Assembly (NCBI RefSeq): GCF_900172325.1
Contig: NZ_FWFR01000003.1
Location: 496,001 to 560,000 of the forward strand
Reading direction: 5' to 3'
Source: Oceanibacterium hippocampi
GTDB lineage: Bacteria > Pseudomonadota > Alphaproteobacteria > Sneathiellales > Sneathiellaceae
Length of the DNA: 64,000 nucleotides
The first letter of the stretch is position 1. Each line of letters begins with the position of its first letter. Shown here piece after piece: positions 8,318 through 39,035 of this stretch. The position numbers and the translations under genes are program-made. The notes beneath the pieces were generated by a model. The model was not told the DNA's origin. It saw only the letters and a program-made list of their open reading frames with translations, and ran no database searches.

Positions 8318-9454
8318 CTAAAGCGGCGTGGGCGCTCCGCCCTGGAGGATATGGCTGCAGCCGTGGCGTTCCGCTTCCGCCTTCGGCTCCTGCTCGGGCA
8401 CCAGTCCGGCCCGCGTCCGCCAGCCCTGGCGGCGCAATTCGCGGGCCGCCGCGAAACCTGTCCCGTAGGGCAGGTAGATGCGCTCCGGCACCGCAGCCGC
8501 GGGCACCGCGCGGGCCAGCGAATCGAGATAGAGCGTGAAGCCGATCGCCGGCTCGCCGCTGCTCAGATGATAACGGCCGCCGCGGCCCAGTTCGCCGCGC
8601 ACGCCGCGGGCGAACAGCGTGAAGCTGACGCCGGTCTGGTACTCGAAGCCCCGATACTCGGTCGGATCGACGGTCAGCAGCACATCCGGCACGGCCGCCG
8701 CCAGCGTCGCGACAAGTTCGGCGAGTTCGCTGCGCATCGCCGCCGCCTCGTCCGGCAGCGACAGGCGTTCCAGCCTCGCGATCGCCTCGGCCGCCGGGCC
8801 GCCGGCGGCAAGCAGCGCGCGAAACACCTCGCCGGCGCCATTCTCGAAGCCGACGAGAGCGCCGGCATCCTTGCGGTCCAGCGCATCGCGCGCCCGGGCG
8901 GAGGCTTCGGCGTCGAGGCCGAGGCCGCGACAGACCGCGGGGACCAGGGTTGGCAGTGTCAGATCGACCGACAGCCGGGCGACCTCGACCCCCTGCAGTG
9001 CCTCGACGGCGAGCAGAACGACTTCGGCGTCGGCGGGAATGCCCTCGGCGCCGATCAACTCGACCCCGGCCTGGGCGAACTGCCGTTCCGGCCGTAGCTG
9101 GCTGCCGCGCACGCGCAGCACCTGGCCGGCATAGGAAAGCCGGAGCGGCCGGGCGGCGCGGGCCAACCGCGTCGTCGCGATTCGCGCCACCTGGGGCGTG
9201 ATGTCGGCGCGCAGCCCCATCATTCGCTGCGAGACCGGGTCCATCACACGGAACATCTGCGGCGCCAGGGCGACGCCCGGCCCGTCCAGAAGGCTGTCCT
9301 CGAACTCGATGAGGGGCGGCTTGACCCGGTCATAGCCGTTGGCATCGAAGGCGGCGACCAGCCGTTCGACCAGGATCGCCTCGCCCTTGGCCTGCGGCGG
9401 CAGACCATCGGCGAGACCGGCGGGAAGCAGTCCCTTGCGCGTCGTATCATTCAT
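8318..9454 (-). CDS. hisZ: ATP phosphoribosyltransferase regulatory subunit HisZ
   Basis: A 378-residue paralogue of class II histidyl-tRNA synthetase that lacks the tRNA-charging function and is required for short-form HisG to make phosphoribosyl-ATP in histidine synthesis. Recognisable segments are LLPAGLADGLPPQAKGEAILVERLVAAFDANGYDRVKPPLIEFEDSLL, the RADITPQVARIATTRL motif 2-like region and GRYHLSSGEPAIGFTLYLDSL. The ATG at 9454 is chosen because the family homology begins there; the upstream frame to 9493 is poor. No hisG is in the window, so it must be encoded elsewhere. Confidence 0.92.
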   Translation of the reverse strand: MNDTTRKGLLPAGLADGLPPQAKGEAILVERLVAAFDANGYDRVKPPLIEFEDSLLDGPGVALAPQMFRVMDPVSQRMMGLRADITPQVARIATTRLARAARPLRLSYAGQVLRVRGSQLRPERQFAQAGVELIGAEGIPADAEVVLLAVEALQGVEVARLSVDLTLPTLVPAVCRGLGLDAEASARARDALDRKDAGALVGFENGAGEVFRALLAAGGPAAEAIARLERLSLPDEAAAMRSELAELVATLAAAVPDVLLTVDPTEYRGFEYQTGVSFTLFARGVRGELGRGGRYHLSSGEPAIGFTLYLDSLARAVPAAAVPERIYLPYGTGFAAARELRRQGWRTRAGLVPEQEPKAEAERHGCSHILQGGAPTPL

Positions 9455-9511
9455 GGCGTGCGGAGTTAAAGCACAGATAGCCGACGTCGCCAATGCTTCC
9501 TTGAAGCGGTC

Positions 9512-9539
9512 CCGGCGCCGGCCCGAAAGCCGGCGCCGG
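9512..9539. other. Perfect 11-bp GC hairpin between serA and hisZ
   Basis: CCGGCGCCGGC (9512-9522) pairs perfectly with GCCGGCGCCGG (9529-9539) around a six-base loop. It starts within the 91-base gap just after the serA stop. No T-run follows on the minus strand, so it is not a standard intrinsic terminator. It could stabilise the serC-serA message end or act as a partial terminator before hisZ. Confidence 0.55.
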
Positions 9540-9545
9540 CAACCC

Positions 9546-11129
9546 TCAACCCGGAAAGGCGAGCGGCTTCACCTGCTTGACATGGTCGAGCCCGGAAACC
9601 GTCTTCATGACCTCGTCAGACAAGGTCTCGTCGATCTCGAGCAGCGCCAGCGCATCGCCGCCCGGCGCCGCGCGGCCGAGGTTGAAGGTCGCGATATTGA
9701 CCCCGCCCTTCGCCAGCGTGGTACCGAGGGCGCCGATCAGGCCCGGCTTGTCGTCGTTGGTGATCAGCAGCATGTGCGGGCGGAGAACCGCCTCGATGCC
9801 GATGCCGTTGATCTCGACGACGCGCGGATGATGGTCGGCGAACAGCGTGCCGGTGACGCTGCGCTGCCGCTTCTCCGTCGTGACCGTCAGGCGGATCGCC
9901 GTCTGGTAGGGATCGGCGCGCTCGTTCGTCGCGATGGTGAGGTCGATGTTGCGCTGCTGCGCGACCACGACCGCGTTGACCATGTTGACCGAATCGAGCA
10001 GCGGCTTGAGCAGTCCCTGCAACATGACCGCCGTCAGCGGCTTGGTGTTGAGCATCGCGACATGGCCCTGGTATTCGATCAGGACCTTCTTCAGGACATG
10101 CTCGGTGACCTGGCCGGCGAAACTTCCGAGCTGCTGGGCAAGCGCCATGTAGGGCTTGAGGCGCGGCGCCTCCTCGGCCGTGACCGAGGCCATGTTGAGC
10201 GCGTTGGTGACCGCGCCGAGCAACAGGAAGTCGGACATCTGCTCGGCCACCTGGATCGCGACATTCTCCTGCGCCTCAAGCGTCGAGGCGCCGAGATGCG
10301 GGGTCGCGACGACATTCTCCATGCCGAACAGGATGTTGTTCTCGGCCGGCTCCTCGGCGAATACGTCCATCGCCGCGCCGGCGACATGGCCGCTCTCCAG
10401 CGCCGCCTTGAGATCGGCCTCGACGATAAGGCCGCCACGCGCGCAATTGACGATCCGGACGCCCTTCTTCGTCTTGGCGATCGACTCCTTGTTCAGCATG
10501 CCTCGGGTCTGGTCGGTCAGCGGCGTGTGGAACGAGATGAAGTCGGCGCGGGCCAGGAGGTCGTCGAGTTCGACCCGCTCGACGCCGAGATCCGCGGCCC
10601 GCTCGGCGGAGAGGAACGGATCGTAGGCGACCACCTTCATCGAGAGGCCGAGGGCCCGTTCGGCGACGATCGAGCCGATGTTGCCGCAGCCGACGATGCC
10701 GAGCGTCTTGCCGTACAGTTCGACACCCATGAAACGGGACTTCTCCCACTTGCCGGCGTGCGTCGAGGCGTTCGCCGTCGGGATCTGCCGGGCCAGCGAG
10801 AAGAGCAGCGCGATGGCGTGCTCCGCCGTCGTGATGGCGTTGCCGAACGGCGTGTTCATCACGCAGACGCCGGCCTCGGTCGCCGCGGTGACATCGACAT
10901 TGTCGACGCCGATCCCGGCCCGGCCGACCACCTTCAGGTTCTTGGCCGCCTTCAGCACCTTGTCGCTGACCTTGGTGGCGGAACGGATCGCGAGCCCGTC
11001 ATACTCGCCGATACAGGCAAGCAGCTCTTCCTTGCTCATCCCCGGCTTCTCGTCGACCTCGATGCCGCGAGCCCGGAAGATACGCGCCGCGTTGGGGCTC
11101 ATCTTGTCGGAAATCAGTACCTTGACCAT
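9546..11129 (-). CDS. serA: D-3-phosphoglycerate dehydrogenase (long, ACT-domain form)
   Basis: A 527-residue NAD-dependent dehydrogenase for the first step of serine synthesis, oxidising 3-phosphoglycerate to 3-phosphohydroxypyruvate. It has the 2-hydroxyacid dehydrogenase fold with the Rossmann motif LGIVGCGNIGSIVAERALGL, the INCARGGL segment and the GAAMDVFAEEPAENNILF active-site region. An intervening substrate-binding domain and a C-terminal ACT domain (HMLLITNDDKPGLIGALGTTLAKGGVNIATFNLGR) make this the type 1 long form, probably controlled by an effector such as serine. It starts 11 bases after the serC stop, so both enzymes are made from one message. Confidence 0.97.
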   Translation of the reverse strand: MVKVLISDKMSPNAARIFRARGIEVDEKPGMSKEELLACIGEYDGLAIRSATKVSDKVLKAAKNLKVVGRAGIGVDNVDVTAATEAGVCVMNTPFGNAITTAEHAIALLFSLARQIPTANASTHAGKWEKSRFMGVELYGKTLGIVGCGNIGSIVAERALGLSMKVVAYDPFLSAERAADLGVERVELDDLLARADFISFHTPLTDQTRGMLNKESIAKTKKGVRIVNCARGGLIVEADLKAALESGHVAGAAMDVFAEEPAENNILFGMENVVATPHLGASTLEAQENVAIQVAEQMSDFLLLGAVTNALNMASVTAEEAPRLKPYMALAQQLGSFAGQVTEHVLKKVLIEYQGHVAMLNTKPLTAVMLQGLLKPLLDSVNMVNAVVVAQQRNIDLTIATNERADPYQTAIRLTVTTEKRQRSVTGTLFADHHPRVVEINGIGIEAVLRPHMLLITNDDKPGLIGALGTTLAKGGVNIATFNLGRAAPGGDALALLEIDETLSDEVMKTVSGLDHVKQVKPLAFPG

Positions 11130-11140
11130 GTCCAGTATCC

Positions 11141-12307
11141 TTACGCGGCGGGGGCGCCGAAGCGCGCCTTGATGTCTTCGAAAGCCCAGTCGAGCCAGCC
11201 GGTGAGCGCCTTCAGATCCGATGCCTCGACCGTCGAGCCGGCCCAGATCCGAAGCCCCGGAGGGGCGTCACGATAGGCGCCGATGTCATAGGCGACAGTC
11301 TCGGCCTCGAGCAGTGCCGCGATTTCCTTCGGCACCGCCGCCTGCTTGTCGGCGTCGAGCGCGGTGAACCACGGATCGACGATCTTCAGGCAGACCGAGG
11401 TGTTCGAACGAACAGCCGGCCGCACGGCCAGGTAATCGATCCAGAGAGTCGCCGCGACCCAGTCGGACAGCACCTTCGCATTGGCATCGGCGCGGGCCCT
11501 GGTGGCCTTCAGGCCGCCGATCTCCTCGACCCATTTGAGCGCATCGAGGACATCCTCGACAGCCAGCATCGACGGCGTGTTGATCGTCTCGCCCTTGAAG
11601 ATGCCTTCGTTGAGCTTGCCGCCCTTGGTCATGCGGAACAGCTTCGGCATCGGCCAGGCCGGCACGTGACTTTCCAGCCGCGCGACGGCGCGCGGGCTGA
11701 GCACGAGCATGCCATGCGCCGCCTCGCCGCCCAGGACTTTCTGCCAGGACCAGGTGACGACGTCGAGCTTGTCCCACGGCAGATCCTGCGCGAACACCGC
11801 CGAGGTCGCGTCGCAGATCGCGAGGCCCTCGCGGTCGGCAGCGATCCAGTCGCCGTCCGGGACGCGCACGCCGGAGGTGGTGCCGTTCCAGGTGAACACG
11901 ACGTCATGCGTCCAGTCGACGGCACCGAGGTCGGGGAGGTCGCCGTAGTCGGCCTTGAGCACCCGGGCGTCGTCGAGCTTGAGCTGCTTCACGACATCGG
12001 TGACCCAGCCCTCGCCGAAGCTTTCCCAGGCCAGCAGGTCGACGGGCCGGGGCCCGAGCAGCGACCAGAGCGCCATTTCCACGGCGCCGGTATCGGAGGC
12101 CGGCACGATGCCGACGCGATAGTCGGCCGGAATGCCGAGGATCGACCGGTGGCGGTCGATGACCTCTTTCAGCTTGGCCTTGCCGATCTTCGCGCGATGC
12201 GAACGGCCGAGGCAGGCGTCATTGAGATTTTGGAGGGTCCAGCCCGGCCGCTTGGCACAGGGACCGGACGAGAAATGGGGCGCCTCTGGGCGCGCCAGTG
12301 CGGTCAT
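11141..12307 (-). CDS. serC: Phosphoserine aminotransferase
   Basis: A 388-residue fold-type I PLP enzyme that turns 3-phosphohydroxypyruvate and glutamate into phosphoserine. It matches the alphaproteobacterial SerC subtype ([23 protein letters not shown] start, [20 protein letters not shown], and the PLP lysine in [14 protein letters not shown]). It is the first gene of the serC-serA operon. The ribosome binding site GGAAGG sits in the loop of a hairpin whose 3' arm includes the A of the start codon, suggesting control of translation. The serB phosphatase for the last step is not in this window. Confidence 0.96.
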
Positions 12308-12349
12308 AGTCTAATCCTTCCAGACTAGTAGCACCCCGGTGGGGGGGTG
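12307..12349 (-). promoter_or_regulatory. Structured 5' leader of serC (candidate serC RNA motif)
   Basis: Reading the minus strand toward serC, two hairpins fill the short leader. The first pairs CACCCC with GGGGTG (12349-12344 and 12337-12332, six-base loop). The second pairs TAGTCT with AGACTA (12327-12322 and 12312-12307) around a nine-base loop that holds the GGAAGG ribosome binding site; its last base is the A of the serC ATG. A conserved RNA named the serC motif has been described upstream of serC-serA operons in alphaproteobacteria; position and size fit, but I could not check against its covariance model. Confidence 0.55.
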
Positions 12350-12362
12350 TGGCCCGCGCCGG

Positions 12363-14760: not shown

Positions 14761-14785
14761 GGTAACGTTTTGGTGTAGCGACGTG
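14761..14785 (+). promoter_or_regulatory. Possible ECF-sigma-type promoter before the YHS/bufferin genes
   Basis: GGTAAC at 14761-14766 is followed after 15 bases by CGTG (14782-14785). This resembles a GGAAC/GTAAC -35 and CGT -10 pattern of extracytoplasmic-function sigma factors. Bufferin operons in Caulobacter have been tied to the ECF factor SigF, as I recall it. The match is short and no sigF-like gene is in the window, so this is tentative. Confidence 0.3.
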
Positions 14786-14871
14786 ATTTGAAGCGAAGGG
14801 GGATCTGTCGCCATTTCTACGCCTATCGGACGATGTCCGTTCAGGCAACGAGACTGAAGGAGAGCTCCTCC

Positions 14872-15414
14872 ATGATCAGATCGCTCCTCCTGGCATCGGC
14901 GTTCTCGCTGATCGCCATGGCCAGTGCGCAGGCCGGTGCGCAATATGTCGACAAGTCCGGATTCGCCATCGGCGGCTACGACCCGGTCGCCTATTTCGAT
15001 CTCGCGCAGTCCCCGGTGGGCCAGCGGCAGGCGCCCGCCGTTCCCGGCAAGGCCAGCATCACGGCCGAATACAACGGCGCCACCTGGGCCTTCGCCTCGG
15101 AAGCGCATCGTGACCGTTTCCTCGCCGATCCGGCGAAATACGCGCCGGCCTATGACGGACATTGCGCCTATGGCATCGCCCAGGGCGGCAAGGTCCCGGG
15201 CAACCCGAACCTCTGGCGAATCGTCGACGGCACGCTCTACCTCAACATCACGCCGACGGTGGTCGGGTTCTGGGAAGCGGACATCCCGGACAACCTCTCG
15301 AAATCCCGGGCCAACTGGGCCGAGCTCGAATCGAAGCCCGCCTCGGAAAGCAGCTGGAAGGCGCTCGACGACAACAAGGGTACCTACAGCGGCGAGGCGC
15401 CGATCACCGACTGA
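14872..15414 (+). CDS. Exported YHS-domain protein
   Basis: A 180-residue protein with a clear signal peptide (MIRSLLLASAFSLIAMASAQAG, cleavage near residue 20) followed by a YHS-type domain: FAIGGYDPVAYFDLAQ, YNGATWAFASEAHRDRFLADPAKYAPAYDGHCAYGIAQGG. YHS domains occur in metal-handling proteins, including copper transporters and oxygenase-associated factors, and are small putative metal-binding modules. This one keeps a single Cys in DGHCAYG. The start at 14872 has a strong site (GAAGGAGAG) and fits the signal peptide. A bufferin operon begins 72 bases downstream on the same strand with no clear terminator between, so a shared role in periplasmic metal handling is plausible but inferred. Confidence 0.8.
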   Translation: MIRSLLLASAFSLIAMASAQAGAQYVDKSGFAIGGYDPVAYFDLAQSPVGQRQAPAVPGKASITAEYNGATWAFASEAHRDRFLADPAKYAPAYDGHCAYGIAQGGKVPGNPNLWRIVDGTLYLNITPTVVGFWEADIPDNLSKSRANWAELESKPASESSWKALDDNKGTYSGEAPITD

Positions 15415-15486
15415 GGCCTGGCGGCCGGTTGCCACCGGCCGGAGCGGTGCAAGGTCAGTCATATTCATCAGCAGAAGGAGAAAGAC

Positions 15487-15819
15487 ATGGCAGACAACGG
15501 AAAGATCCTCGGCGCGGCAGCGATTGCCGGGGCGGTGGCCCTCGCGGTCTCGGCGACAGCAATCGTGAGCCCGGCTTCGGCCGCGGCCAAGGAGAAGTGT
15601 TTCGGCATTGCCCTCGCCGGCCAGAACGATTGCGCCGCGGGCGCCGGAACGACCTGCGCCGGCACGTCCAAGGTCGACTACCAGGGCAATGCCTGGAAGC
15701 TCGTCCCCGCCGGTGACTGCATGAAGTTCGGCGTCGAGGAAACGCAGGCCCAGTTCGAGCTTCCGGGCGACCGCAAGGGATCGCTCGAGGCACTCACGCG
15801 CGATCTTCCGAGCGCCTGA
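15487..15819 (+). CDS. bufA: Bufferin-type precursor peptide (DUF2282, BufA1-like)
   Basis: A 110-residue secreted protein of the DUF2282 family. A Sec signal peptide ends near residue 33 ([10 protein letters not shown]), and four cysteines follow at 38, 49, 57 and 78 in the family pattern [15 protein letters not shown]...TTCAGTS...WKLVPAGDC. Recent work, as I recall it, identified such proteins as bufferins, copper-binding RiPPs whose central cysteines are turned into thiooxazoles by a DUF692 enzyme before export. Here the DUF692, DUF2063 and DoxX genes follow directly. About 30 residues extend past the fourth Cys (to LTRDLPSA), longer than I expect for the family. The ribosome binding site AGAAGGAGA is strong. 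Confidence 0.88.
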
Positions 15820-15887
15820 CCCCGTTGGGCCCGATCCCGCCGGAAGCCAGCAGGCTTTCGGCGGGACGGTGCCCGGGAACGCCTGCC

Positions 15888-16805
15888 ATGACCGCCCCAA
15901 CCCCGACCCGGAGTACACGCATGCCGGTGCCCTCGCGCGCCGGCGTCGGCCTGAAGGCGGACCATGTCGACGCCATCCTCGACACTCGGCCCGATGTGGG
16001 CTGGTTCGAGGTCCATGCCGAGAACTACATGGGCGCCGGCGGCCCGCCCCATCGCTGGCTGACCGCGATATGCCGGGTCTACCCCCTTTCCGTTCACGGG
16101 GTCGGCCTCTCGATCGGCAGTGCAGGGTCGCTCGACAAGGCGCACCTGGCGCGATTGCGAGCGCTCGTCCGCCGTTACGAGCCCGGCCTGGTCAGCGAGC
16201 ATCTCGCCTGGTCGAGCCATGCCGGCATCCATTACAATGATCTGCTGCCGCTTCCCTATTCCGCCGAGACGCTGGACCGCGTGGCCGACCATGTCGACCT
16301 GCTGCAGGAGACGCTAGCCCGGCCGGTCCTGATCGAGAATCCCGCGACTTACGTCGCTTTCGAGGCGAGCGACATGAGCGAGCTCGATTTCCTGCGGGCG
16401 CTCGTGGCGCGGACCGGTTGCGGCCTGCTGCTCGACGTCAACAACGTGCTGGTCTCCGCGACCAACGGCGCTTTCAGCGCGGAGGACTATCTCGACAGCT
16501 TTCCGCTGGAAGCCGTCGGCGAACTCCATCTTGCCGGCCATGCCCGCGAACGCGACGGGCGCGGTGCCGAGATCCTGATCGATGCTCATGACCGGGCGGT
16601 TCCGGACACGGTCTGGACGCTCTATGAGCGCACCCTCGGGCGGTCAGGACCGCTGCCGACGCTGATCGAATGGGACAATGACCTGCCGGACTGGACGACG
16701 CTCCTGGCGGAAGCCGGCGCGGCCGAACGGCGGCTCCGCGCCGCGCATGGCCTGTCCGGCGCGGCCGCGCCTTCCGGGAGGCAGTCTCATGCGCGGGCTC
16801 GCTGA
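15888..16805 (+). CDS. bufB: DUF692 multinuclear non-heme iron oxidative enzyme (MNIO, BufB)
   Basis: A 305-residue TIM-barrel protein of the DUF692/MNIO family, which uses two or three irons to modify cysteine residues of ribosomal peptides. Family segments with likely metal ligands are VGWFEVHAENYMG, LSVHGVGLSIG, VSEHLAWSSHAG, VLIENPATYV, LLLDVNNVLVSATN, GELHLAGH and DAHDRAVPDTVW. It would act in the cytoplasm on the neighbouring DUF2282 precursor together with the DUF2063 protein. The ATG at 15888 is taken as start; an ATG at 15921 nearer the first conserved strand is possible. Its 3' end overlaps the next gene by 17 bases, so translation is coupled. Confidence 0.92.
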   Translation: MTAPTPTRSTRMPVPSRAGVGLKADHVDAILDTRPDVGWFEVHAENYMGAGGPPHRWLTAICRVYPLSVHGVGLSIGSAGSLDKAHLARLRALVRRYEPGLVSEHLAWSSHAGIHYNDLLPLPYSAETLDRVADHVDLLQETLARPVLIENPATYVAFEASDMSELDFLRALVARTGCGLLLDVNNVLVSATNGAFSAEDYLDSFPLEAVGELHLAGHARERDGRGAEILIDAHDRAVPDTVWTLYERTLGRSGPLPTLIEWDNDLPDWTTLLAEAGAAERRLRAAHGLSGAAAPSGRQSHARAR

Positions 16806-17589
16806 CATCCAGGCAAGCTTCGCCGCCGCGCTGGCCGATCCCGAACGGCCGGCGCCACCCGCCTTGCGCGCCGGTGCCGAGACAGCCGACAGCACCCGCT
16901 TCGACATCTACCGCAACAACATCATGGTCGGCCTGATCGAGGGCCTGGAGCGCAATTTTCCGGTGGTGCGCCGGCTCGTCGGAGACGCTTTCTTCCGCCA
17001 TGCCGCCCGGACTTACGCCCGGCACAACCCGCCCCGCTCGCCGGTCCTGCTGCTCTACGGGCGCGGTTTCGGCGACTTCCTCGACCAATTCGAGGCGGCG
17101 CGCTCGGTACCCTATCTCGGGGACGTGGCCCGCCTCGAATGGGCCCGGCTCGACGCCTATCACGCCGCCGACGCGGACCCGCTCGCGATCGATCGGCTGG
17201 CGGCGGTCGCGGCCCCGGATCTCGACGGCCTGCGCCTTACCCTGCACCCGTCGCTGCATCTTCTCGGCTCCCGCTTTCCGGTGGGCTCGATCTGGGCCGC
17301 GACGAGCGGCGCCGATCCGGCAACGGCGGTGGACATGGCACGCGGCGAGGATGTCGCCGTGCTGCGCCCCGGCCCGACCGTCGAGCTTCGCATCCTGCCG
17401 GCGGCCGGGCGGACCTTCATCGAAGGGCTTGCCGCCGGCCGCAGCCTCGGTGCCGCCGCCCGTGCCGCCGCCGAGGCGCATGCCGATTTCGATCTCTCCA
17501 GCCACCTTTCGGGTCTCTTCGGACTCGGCGCAGTCATCGCCCTCGAGACCGGCCTCCCGGTCGACAACCAGCCACAGGCAGAAAAATGA
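16789..17589 (+). CDS. bufC: DUF2063 DNA-binding-fold partner protein (BufC)
   Basis: A 266-residue protein with the N-terminal DUF2063 domain (LADIQASFAAAL... RFDIYRNNIMVGLIEGLERNFPVVRRLVGDAFFRHAARTYA) and a C-terminal helical/beta region (about residues 140-265). Despite its annotation as putative DNA-binding, this family is the usual partner of DUF692 enzymes and likely recruits the precursor peptide through its C-terminal RRE-like domain. The start at 16789 has GGGAGG upstream and lies inside the end of bufB. Its TGA overlaps the ATG of the DoxX gene (ATGA), so all three are translationally coupled. Confidence 0.9.
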   Translation: MRGLADIQASFAAALADPERPAPPALRAGAETADSTRFDIYRNNIMVGLIEGLERNFPVVRRLVGDAFFRHAARTYARHNPPRSPVLLLYGRGFGDFLDQFEAARSVPYLGDVARLEWARLDAYHAADADPLAIDRLAAVAAPDLDGLRLTLHPSLHLLGSRFPVGSIWAATSGADPATAVDMARGEDVAVLRPGPTVELRILPAAGRTFIEGLAAGRSLGAAARAAAEAHADFDLSSHLSGLFGLGAVIALETGLPVDNQPQAEK

Positions 17590-18155
17590 TATCGCGAACG
17601 ATTTTGACACTGACCGACCTGCATGGCCGGTTCTTCGATCGCCTCGACGCAATGCTCGGCCCTTGGCTGCCGGGCCTGCTCGCCCGCCTGGTCTTTGCCG
17701 GCGTGCTGCTCGTCTACTACCTGAAATCGGCGGGCACGAAGGTCGGCGACGGTATCGCCGGTTTCTTCAGCATTGCCGACAACGCCTATTTCCAGATCCT
17801 GCCGAAGGTCGTCGAGGCGCATGGCTACGACGCCTCGCAGGTACCGTTCTTTCCCTACGACATCATCGTCGCGGCCGGGACCTATGCCGAGTTCGCGCTG
17901 CCGCTGCTGATCGTCGCCGGGCTGTTCACCCGGCTGGCAGCACTCGGCATGATCGGATTCGTGATCATCCAGAGCTATGTCGACATCACCGCCCATGGCG
18001 TCGACGCGGCAACCATCGGGCACTGGTTCGACGCGGCACCGGATTCGGCCATTCTCGACCAGCGGGCACTCTGGGTCTTCCTGCTGCTCATCCTCGTCCT
18101 GCGAGGCGCCGGGGCGATTTCGCTCGACCGCCTGTTCGCCCGGGGGCGCGGCTGA
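17586..18155 (+). CDS. bufD: DoxX-family inner-membrane protein (BufD)
   Basis: A 189-residue membrane protein with about four helices (LLARLVFAGVLLVYYLKSAG; IIVAAGTYAEFALPLLIVAGLFTRLAALGMIGFVIIQSYVDI; ALWVFLLLILVLRGAGAISLD) and the DoxX hallmark RLVFAGVLL... GLFTRLAALG. DoxX proteins often close bufferin operons; their exact part (quinone or redox link, export or re-oxidation) is not settled. The start at 17586 overlaps the bufC stop, which fixes it as the operon's last gene. The longer frame upstream is shadow of bufC. Confidence 0.9.
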   Translation: MISRTILTLTDLHGRFFDRLDAMLGPWLPGLLARLVFAGVLLVYYLKSAGTKVGDGIAGFFSIADNAYFQILPKVVEAHGYDASQVPFFPYDIIVAAGTYAEFALPLLIVAGLFTRLAALGMIGFVIIQSYVDITAHGVDAATIGHWFDAAPDSAILDQRALWVFLLLILVLRGAGAISLDRLFARGRG

Positions 18156-38869: not shown

Positions 38870-39035
38870 GTTGGCGGGACCACCAGAGCCGTGGAAATGA
38901 AATGAACCTCTGTGGCCTGACAAAGTCAGGTGGGCACCGTGTGTCCGGAACCAGGGTTCCGGCCAGGGACAGCTCCCTAGGTTCTCTTTATTGGCCCCAG
39001 GGTCATGATTTCTCACGCGATCGGCAGTACCCGCC
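38870..39035 (-). ncRNA. ssrS: 6S RNA
   Basis: The gap between zapA and fau, where ssrS sits in proteobacteria, folds as a 6S RNA on the minus strand. A closing stem pairs 39004-38993 with 38890-38878 (12 pairs with one bulge, several G-U). Inside, GAACCT (38984-38979) pairs with AGGTTC (38909-38904) across a large bubble. Three small hairpins follow: AGGGA/TCCCT (38978-38965), CCGGAACC/GGTTCCGG (38962-38945) and CCTGAC/GTCAGG (38930-38916). The bubble mimics an open promoter and sequesters housekeeping RNA polymerase in stationary phase. Ends are estimated to within about 10 bases. Confidence 0.8.

Follow-up and report, generated by a model that had tools for sequence, protein, structure and literature searches.

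In Oceanibacterium hippocampi, a gene for an exported protein of the YHS (seleno)protein family heads an apparently complete Buf1 bufferin operon; because many other bacteria keep the five genes in this order, the YHS protein is probably a real part of the bufferin system. The four-gene bufferin core is known, whereas the exported YHS protein as a recurrent fifth component is probably new and so far undescribed. Within the window (the whole 64,000-nucleotide stretch of DNA analysed), profile searches place the YHS gene and the bufferin genes behind it at 14872-18155, and every gene that the original prediction had listed for this locus was recovered in its place. The features discussed below are as follows.

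14762-14791, + strand: conserved regulatory element GTAACGTTTTGGTGTAGCGACGTGATTTGA, 81-110 bases 5' of the YHS start codon
14788-14816, + strand: tentative promoter, -35 (TTGAAG)/-10 region, weak by consensus
14872-15414, + strand: exported YHS_seleno-family protein, 180 aa, with Cys98 (not Sec) and a Sec signal peptide
15415-15486, + strand: YHS-bufA spacer, 72 bases, with no conserved promoter-like element
15487-15819, + strand: bufA, Buf1 (DUF2282) bufferin precursor, 110 aa (PF10048, 84 bits; alignment with relatives)
15821-15877, + strand: strong stem-loop in the bufA-bufB gap, -47.4 kcal/mol, z -5.5, inner stem 15835-15866
15888-16805, + strand: bufB, MNIO bufferin maturase (NF050167 MNIO_BufB, 378 bits, cut-off 310)
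16789-17589, + strand: bufC, DUF2063 partner protein (PF09836, 87.6 bits, cut-off 27.2)
17586-18155, + strand: putative DoxX-family membrane protein (PF07681, 20.3 bits against a Pfam cut-off of 23.6; homologous to the DoxX proteins of relatives)

The YHS protein scores above the curated cut-off of NCBIfam NF041384 (123 against 70 bits) and that of Pfam YHS (33.2 against 30.3 bits). It matches the former over the whole domain, with the GYDPVAYF, GxC and LYLN motifs and a signal peptide ending AQA/G, and differs from it in having Cys for Sec, in an insertion of about nine residues typical of the window-type clade and in being encoded with a bufferin. The bufA product carries the signal peptide and four Cys of a Buf1 precursor. 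As predicted, the signal-peptide YHS gene lies on the same strand 72 bases 5' of bufA, which is preceded by a Shine-Dalgarno sequence (GAAGGAG), and no terminator-like site was found in the spacer between them. The claim that the bufferin genes overlap or nearly touch holds for bufB-bufC (17 bases) and bufC-doxX (4 bases), but bufA and bufB are separated by a gap of 68 bases.

The closest described counterpart is the Buf1 (gig) operon of Caulobacter (CC3254-3257). In both, genes for the BufB MNIO, the DUF2063 partner and a DoxX protein (putative in the window) come in the same order after a DUF2282 precursor that has four Cys and a signal peptide; the window operon differs by the extra exported YHS gene at its head. 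Bufferins make up the largest families of MNIO RiPPs. Their published core consists of precursor, MNIO, DUF2063 and DoxX, with other conserved genes described as very rare (Antoine et al., PMC12452194). The main text of that study does not mention YHS, although a supplementary listing is possible, and in the main texts covered by our literature search no paper joined YHS with bufferin, DUF692, DUF2282 or DoxX. A fifth gene would offer a handle on the fate of bufferin and copper after export. For the YHS (seleno)protein family, which is common in Pseudomonadota but has no function described in the texts searched, the bufferin link would supply a first functional setting.

Whether the YHS gene is conserved beside bufferin operons, a question raised by the original prediction, was addressed by neighbourhood surveys at several taxonomic depths, and the link survived. 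When DUF2282 and YHS_seleno genes were located separately in 61 relatives, 9 of 11 DUF2282 loci in the window's family had a YHS gene immediately upstream in the same orientation. In one genus of this family, those genomes that lack DUF2282 retain other YHS genes, and the one strong YHS match among them that seemed an exception (genome G015) belongs to another subtype, adjoining other genes. Across the class (289 genomes), nine adjacent YHS-DUF2282 pairs from four families were found against 0.012 expected, a value computed from 91 possible pairs in 43 genomes, and about 109 of 118 DUF2282 loci lacked YHS. The phylum survey added four adjacent pairs in one family outside the class, two of them in a single genome; the order of the genes was read in the loci retrieved. 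A plasmid search returned mostly distant YHS matches.

The closest YHS proteins were aligned and used as the query against 84,980 genomes; of the 80 loci retrieved, 28 have BufA-BufB-BufC-(DoxX) immediately downstream on the same strand, DoxX being present in all except one locus at a contig end. The linked taxa include Pelagibius, Kiloniellaceae, Rhodovibrionaceae, Geminicoccaceae, Tepidamorphaceae, Rhodobiaceae, Minwuia, Kordiimonadales and the gammaproteobacterial Granulosicoccaceae; the genes flanking the unit vary between loci, and the YHS-bufA spacer ranges from 25 to 200 bases. At one further locus (L195) a broken bufferin operon, its bufB split into several frames, is inverted and faces YHS. 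For the remaining 51 genes, most of them from Thalassospira or Rhodobacteraceae, no bufferin gene lies within about 5 kb, and among the unlinked loci inspected by eye no common partner was seen. Since most bufferin operons lack YHS and these 51 YHS genes lack a bufferin, neither requires the other. YHS is probably a recurrent but minority accessory gene of bufferin operons.

Several loci depart from this arrangement or extend it. Two (L082 and L110) hold YHS-BufA-DoxX units in which no MNIO or DUF2063 gene was recognised within the stretch examined. At L092 a second YHS paralogue (9135-9638) lies about 2 kb 3' of the bufferin operon, next to an AraC-family regulator bearing a cupin domain. At L092 and L100, in the sister genus, the YHS-bufferin unit has cation-efflux (CDF) genes at its flanks, one of them adjoining a MerR regulator; metals besides copper may be involved in such units. 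The record behind locus L181 is titled as a Mesoflavibacter MAG and bears an alphaproteobacterial-type YHS-bufferin unit; its label is probably wrong.

In a tree of 122 YHS proteins, the bufferin-adjacent members fall in several lineages, with at least three changes forced by supported branches. The window protein groups there with the f82 pair, and in the window-type tree with Pelagibius and L181. Over 29 linked loci, the pairwise YHS distances show correlations of 0.74 with BufB distances and 0.82 with BufC distances (0.70 and 0.78 after near-duplicates were dropped), values matched by none of 2000 permutations; for BufA-BufC the value is 0.75. Such parallel divergence fits a long joint inheritance of YHS with BufB and BufC, though shared species history contributes to the correlation.

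In Caulobacter the cysteines of the Buf1 precursor are oxidised and the product is exported as a thiooxazole copper chelator. For the window we lean, on balance, towards a five-gene bufferin operon expressed from a promoter 5' of YHS, in which the exported YHS protein is a thiol-redox partner beside BufA. Gene content, recurrence, parallel divergence, the upstream element and the hairpin after bufA are observed, and the single transcript, the periplasmic location and the redox role are inferred. The five genes, YHS-bufA-bufB-bufC-doxX, would be read as one unit. By analogy with Caulobacter, the BufA cysteines would be oxidised by BufB with BufC before export of the chelator, while YHS, exported by its own signal peptide, would share the periplasm with BufA and act beside it under the same envelope stress. 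Its most probable task there is thiol-redox chemistry at the single conserved Cys98, by which thiols of the periplasm or of bufferin would be protected or reset when copper or oxidants cause stress, with direct copper binding as a second choice.

The residues of the protein bear on this choice. Cys98 occupies the GxU/C position, where NF041384 members have Sec or Cys, and is conserved in 95 of 97 homologues; Sec is known to replace Cys at GxU in some YHS homologues (PMC13188914). Conservation across YHS lineages extends to G35, D37, G59, F74, F83, P87, P92, G96 and W149. A redox role can be proposed with modest confidence from this one conserved Cys and the Sec-containing homologues.

The original prediction had instead suggested that the YHS protein delivers or removes copper. 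A chaperone that uses Cys98 and His97 to give copper to mature bufferin or take it back would suit a gene tied to the operon of a copper-binding RiPP; the His97-Cys98 pair is conserved in the window-type clade, and the same genome encodes a P-type-ATPase-like protein (L108) in which a YHS domain occurs. Against this, the mature protein contains a single Cys, two His and no Met; in other bufferin-linked lineages Tyr, Phe or Trp takes the place of His97, leaving only the Cys conserved across them, and no metal site was seen in solved structures of the YHS family. A copper chaperone is thus rather unlikely, and delivery or removal of copper is not favoured by the sequence; the scarcity of ligands, together with Sec in the place of Cys in homologues, is why a redox role is preferred. 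An AlphaFold model built with 97 homologous sequences and used in place of a poor one built with ten (pLDDT 62) is a single confident domain (pLDDT 91.7, 97-98 in the block around Cys98). A fold search against solved structures found no relative beyond the short YHS core; no solved metal protein could be accepted as a fold relative, the best E being 0.29 and the close toluene monooxygenase matches spanning only 27 residues.

A stronger form of the redox reading is put forward only tentatively: YHS would belong to a bufferin subtype as a dedicated component, acting in the periplasm as a thiol/selenol redox partner by which modified bufferin, or its copper, is kept in a working state. If true, it would give the YHS (seleno)protein family its first function, and it would explain an upstream element common to bufferin, MsrP, DUF3179 and YHS genes.

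This element, at 14762-14791, is found with 0-3 mismatches at the same position in the linked relatives L180-L184 and L252. An upstream alignment of the window and five relatives shows the conserved block GTNACNTTTTNGTGNNNNNNCGTGATTTGA 81-110 bases before YHS, and little conserved in the YHS-bufA spacer except the Shine-Dalgarno sequence. At up to three mismatches the element has a single site in the whole genome, and none was found in 100 shuffles of the window. The promoter assignment is weaker: a TTGATC-N17-ATATCTC-like spacing is common to the Pelagibius relatives, but the window copy is poor, and a consensus promoter scan did not detect it at 14788-14816.

A matrix made from the element also scores ahead of unlinked Thalassospira YHS genes and before bufA of the YHS-less operons L056 (z 8.5), L069 (z 6.9), L063, L067 and L078, but most loci lack a match, and the element is clear in some lineages only (at p<=0.05 in 4 of the 20 linked loci outside the seed set). 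A shorter exact form of the motif has nine sites in 289 genomes, against none for the reversed control. One is at the window operon and another at a bufferin operon without YHS; an MsrP gene and two DUF3179 genes have one each, a single genome has three, and the ninth, in mnmA, is apparently there by chance. The DUF3179 genes (L265 and L266, in G217 and G309) represent another family with Sec members, and the MsrP gene (L261, in G075) is followed by an MsrQ-like frame. One of the three sites in the single genome (G205) precedes, at L260 (1617-1904), an exported GK(F/Y)G-repeat (KYG-repeat) peptide without Cys that is reminiscent of EGKCG bufferin-like precursors.

From these motif matches, bufferin, YHS, DUF3179 and MsrP genes could possibly belong to one envelope-stress regulon. 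In Caulobacter, bufferins and YedY/MsrPQ form a sigmaF regulon induced by copper, chromate and cadmium (PMC3511200, PMC8224329); the window-type element occurs at target genes of these classes too, although the motif differs and YHS is added. Control of the window operon by sigmaF was rejected: NrsF is absent from the genome, neither sigF nor NrsF lies near the operon, unlike in Caulobacter, and the element mismatches the sigmaF motif GTAACC-N16-CGAA. Another regulator therefore probably acts, and the shared element allows a common regulator to be tested for in genomes that lack sigF/NrsF. In a sister genus, a TetR-family gene is divergent to YHS, with the palindrome GTACCAATTGG between them.

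The same motif data could be read as co-regulation and nothing further, with YHS and bufferin sharing one envelope-stress regulon and lying side by side for convenience, without joint work. The related element retained by unlinked YHS genes and its likeness at some YHS-less bufferin operons and an MsrP gene would be expected on this account; it is nevertheless improbable, as the exact five-gene order is kept among unlike flanks and has arisen in more than one YHS lineage.

It is very doubtful that YHS is a second MNIO substrate, oxidised at Cys98 before export. The protein is exported, contains Cys and is encoded next to BufB, and MNIOs have been proposed to modify proteins as well (PMC12452194), but Cys98 sits inside the confidently folded domain, and many close YHS homologues have no MNIO nearby. 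That the adjacency is accidental or merely inherited in one clade is hardly credible given the excess of pairs in the 289 genomes and their spread over several families and two classes, even though most bufferin operons lack YHS and the close clade is partly one lineage.

Returning to the proposed five-gene operon with a thiol-redox YHS protein, RNA structure may modulate its output. The 7-bp GC hairpin predicted at 15423-15440 exists, but it is no stabler than shuffled sequence (z 0.01, the composition expectation) and was rejected as a terminator or attenuator in the window. Only 18 of 46 YHS-bufA spacers have z under -1.5, so a spacer hairpin is not a general feature; that of L099 is T-rich, hairpins also occur in the spacers of some other relatives, and these could partly uncouple YHS from bufA. 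The stem-loop between bufA and bufB, by comparison, reaches z values below -1.5 at 21 of the 29 linked loci and likely sets the ratio of peptide to enzyme, in that a hairpin after bufA would let exported YHS and BufA exceed the enzymes. Elsewhere in the window, Rfam matches correspond to 6S RNA and a serC leader, at 38873-39033 (- strand) and 12306-12359 (- strand).
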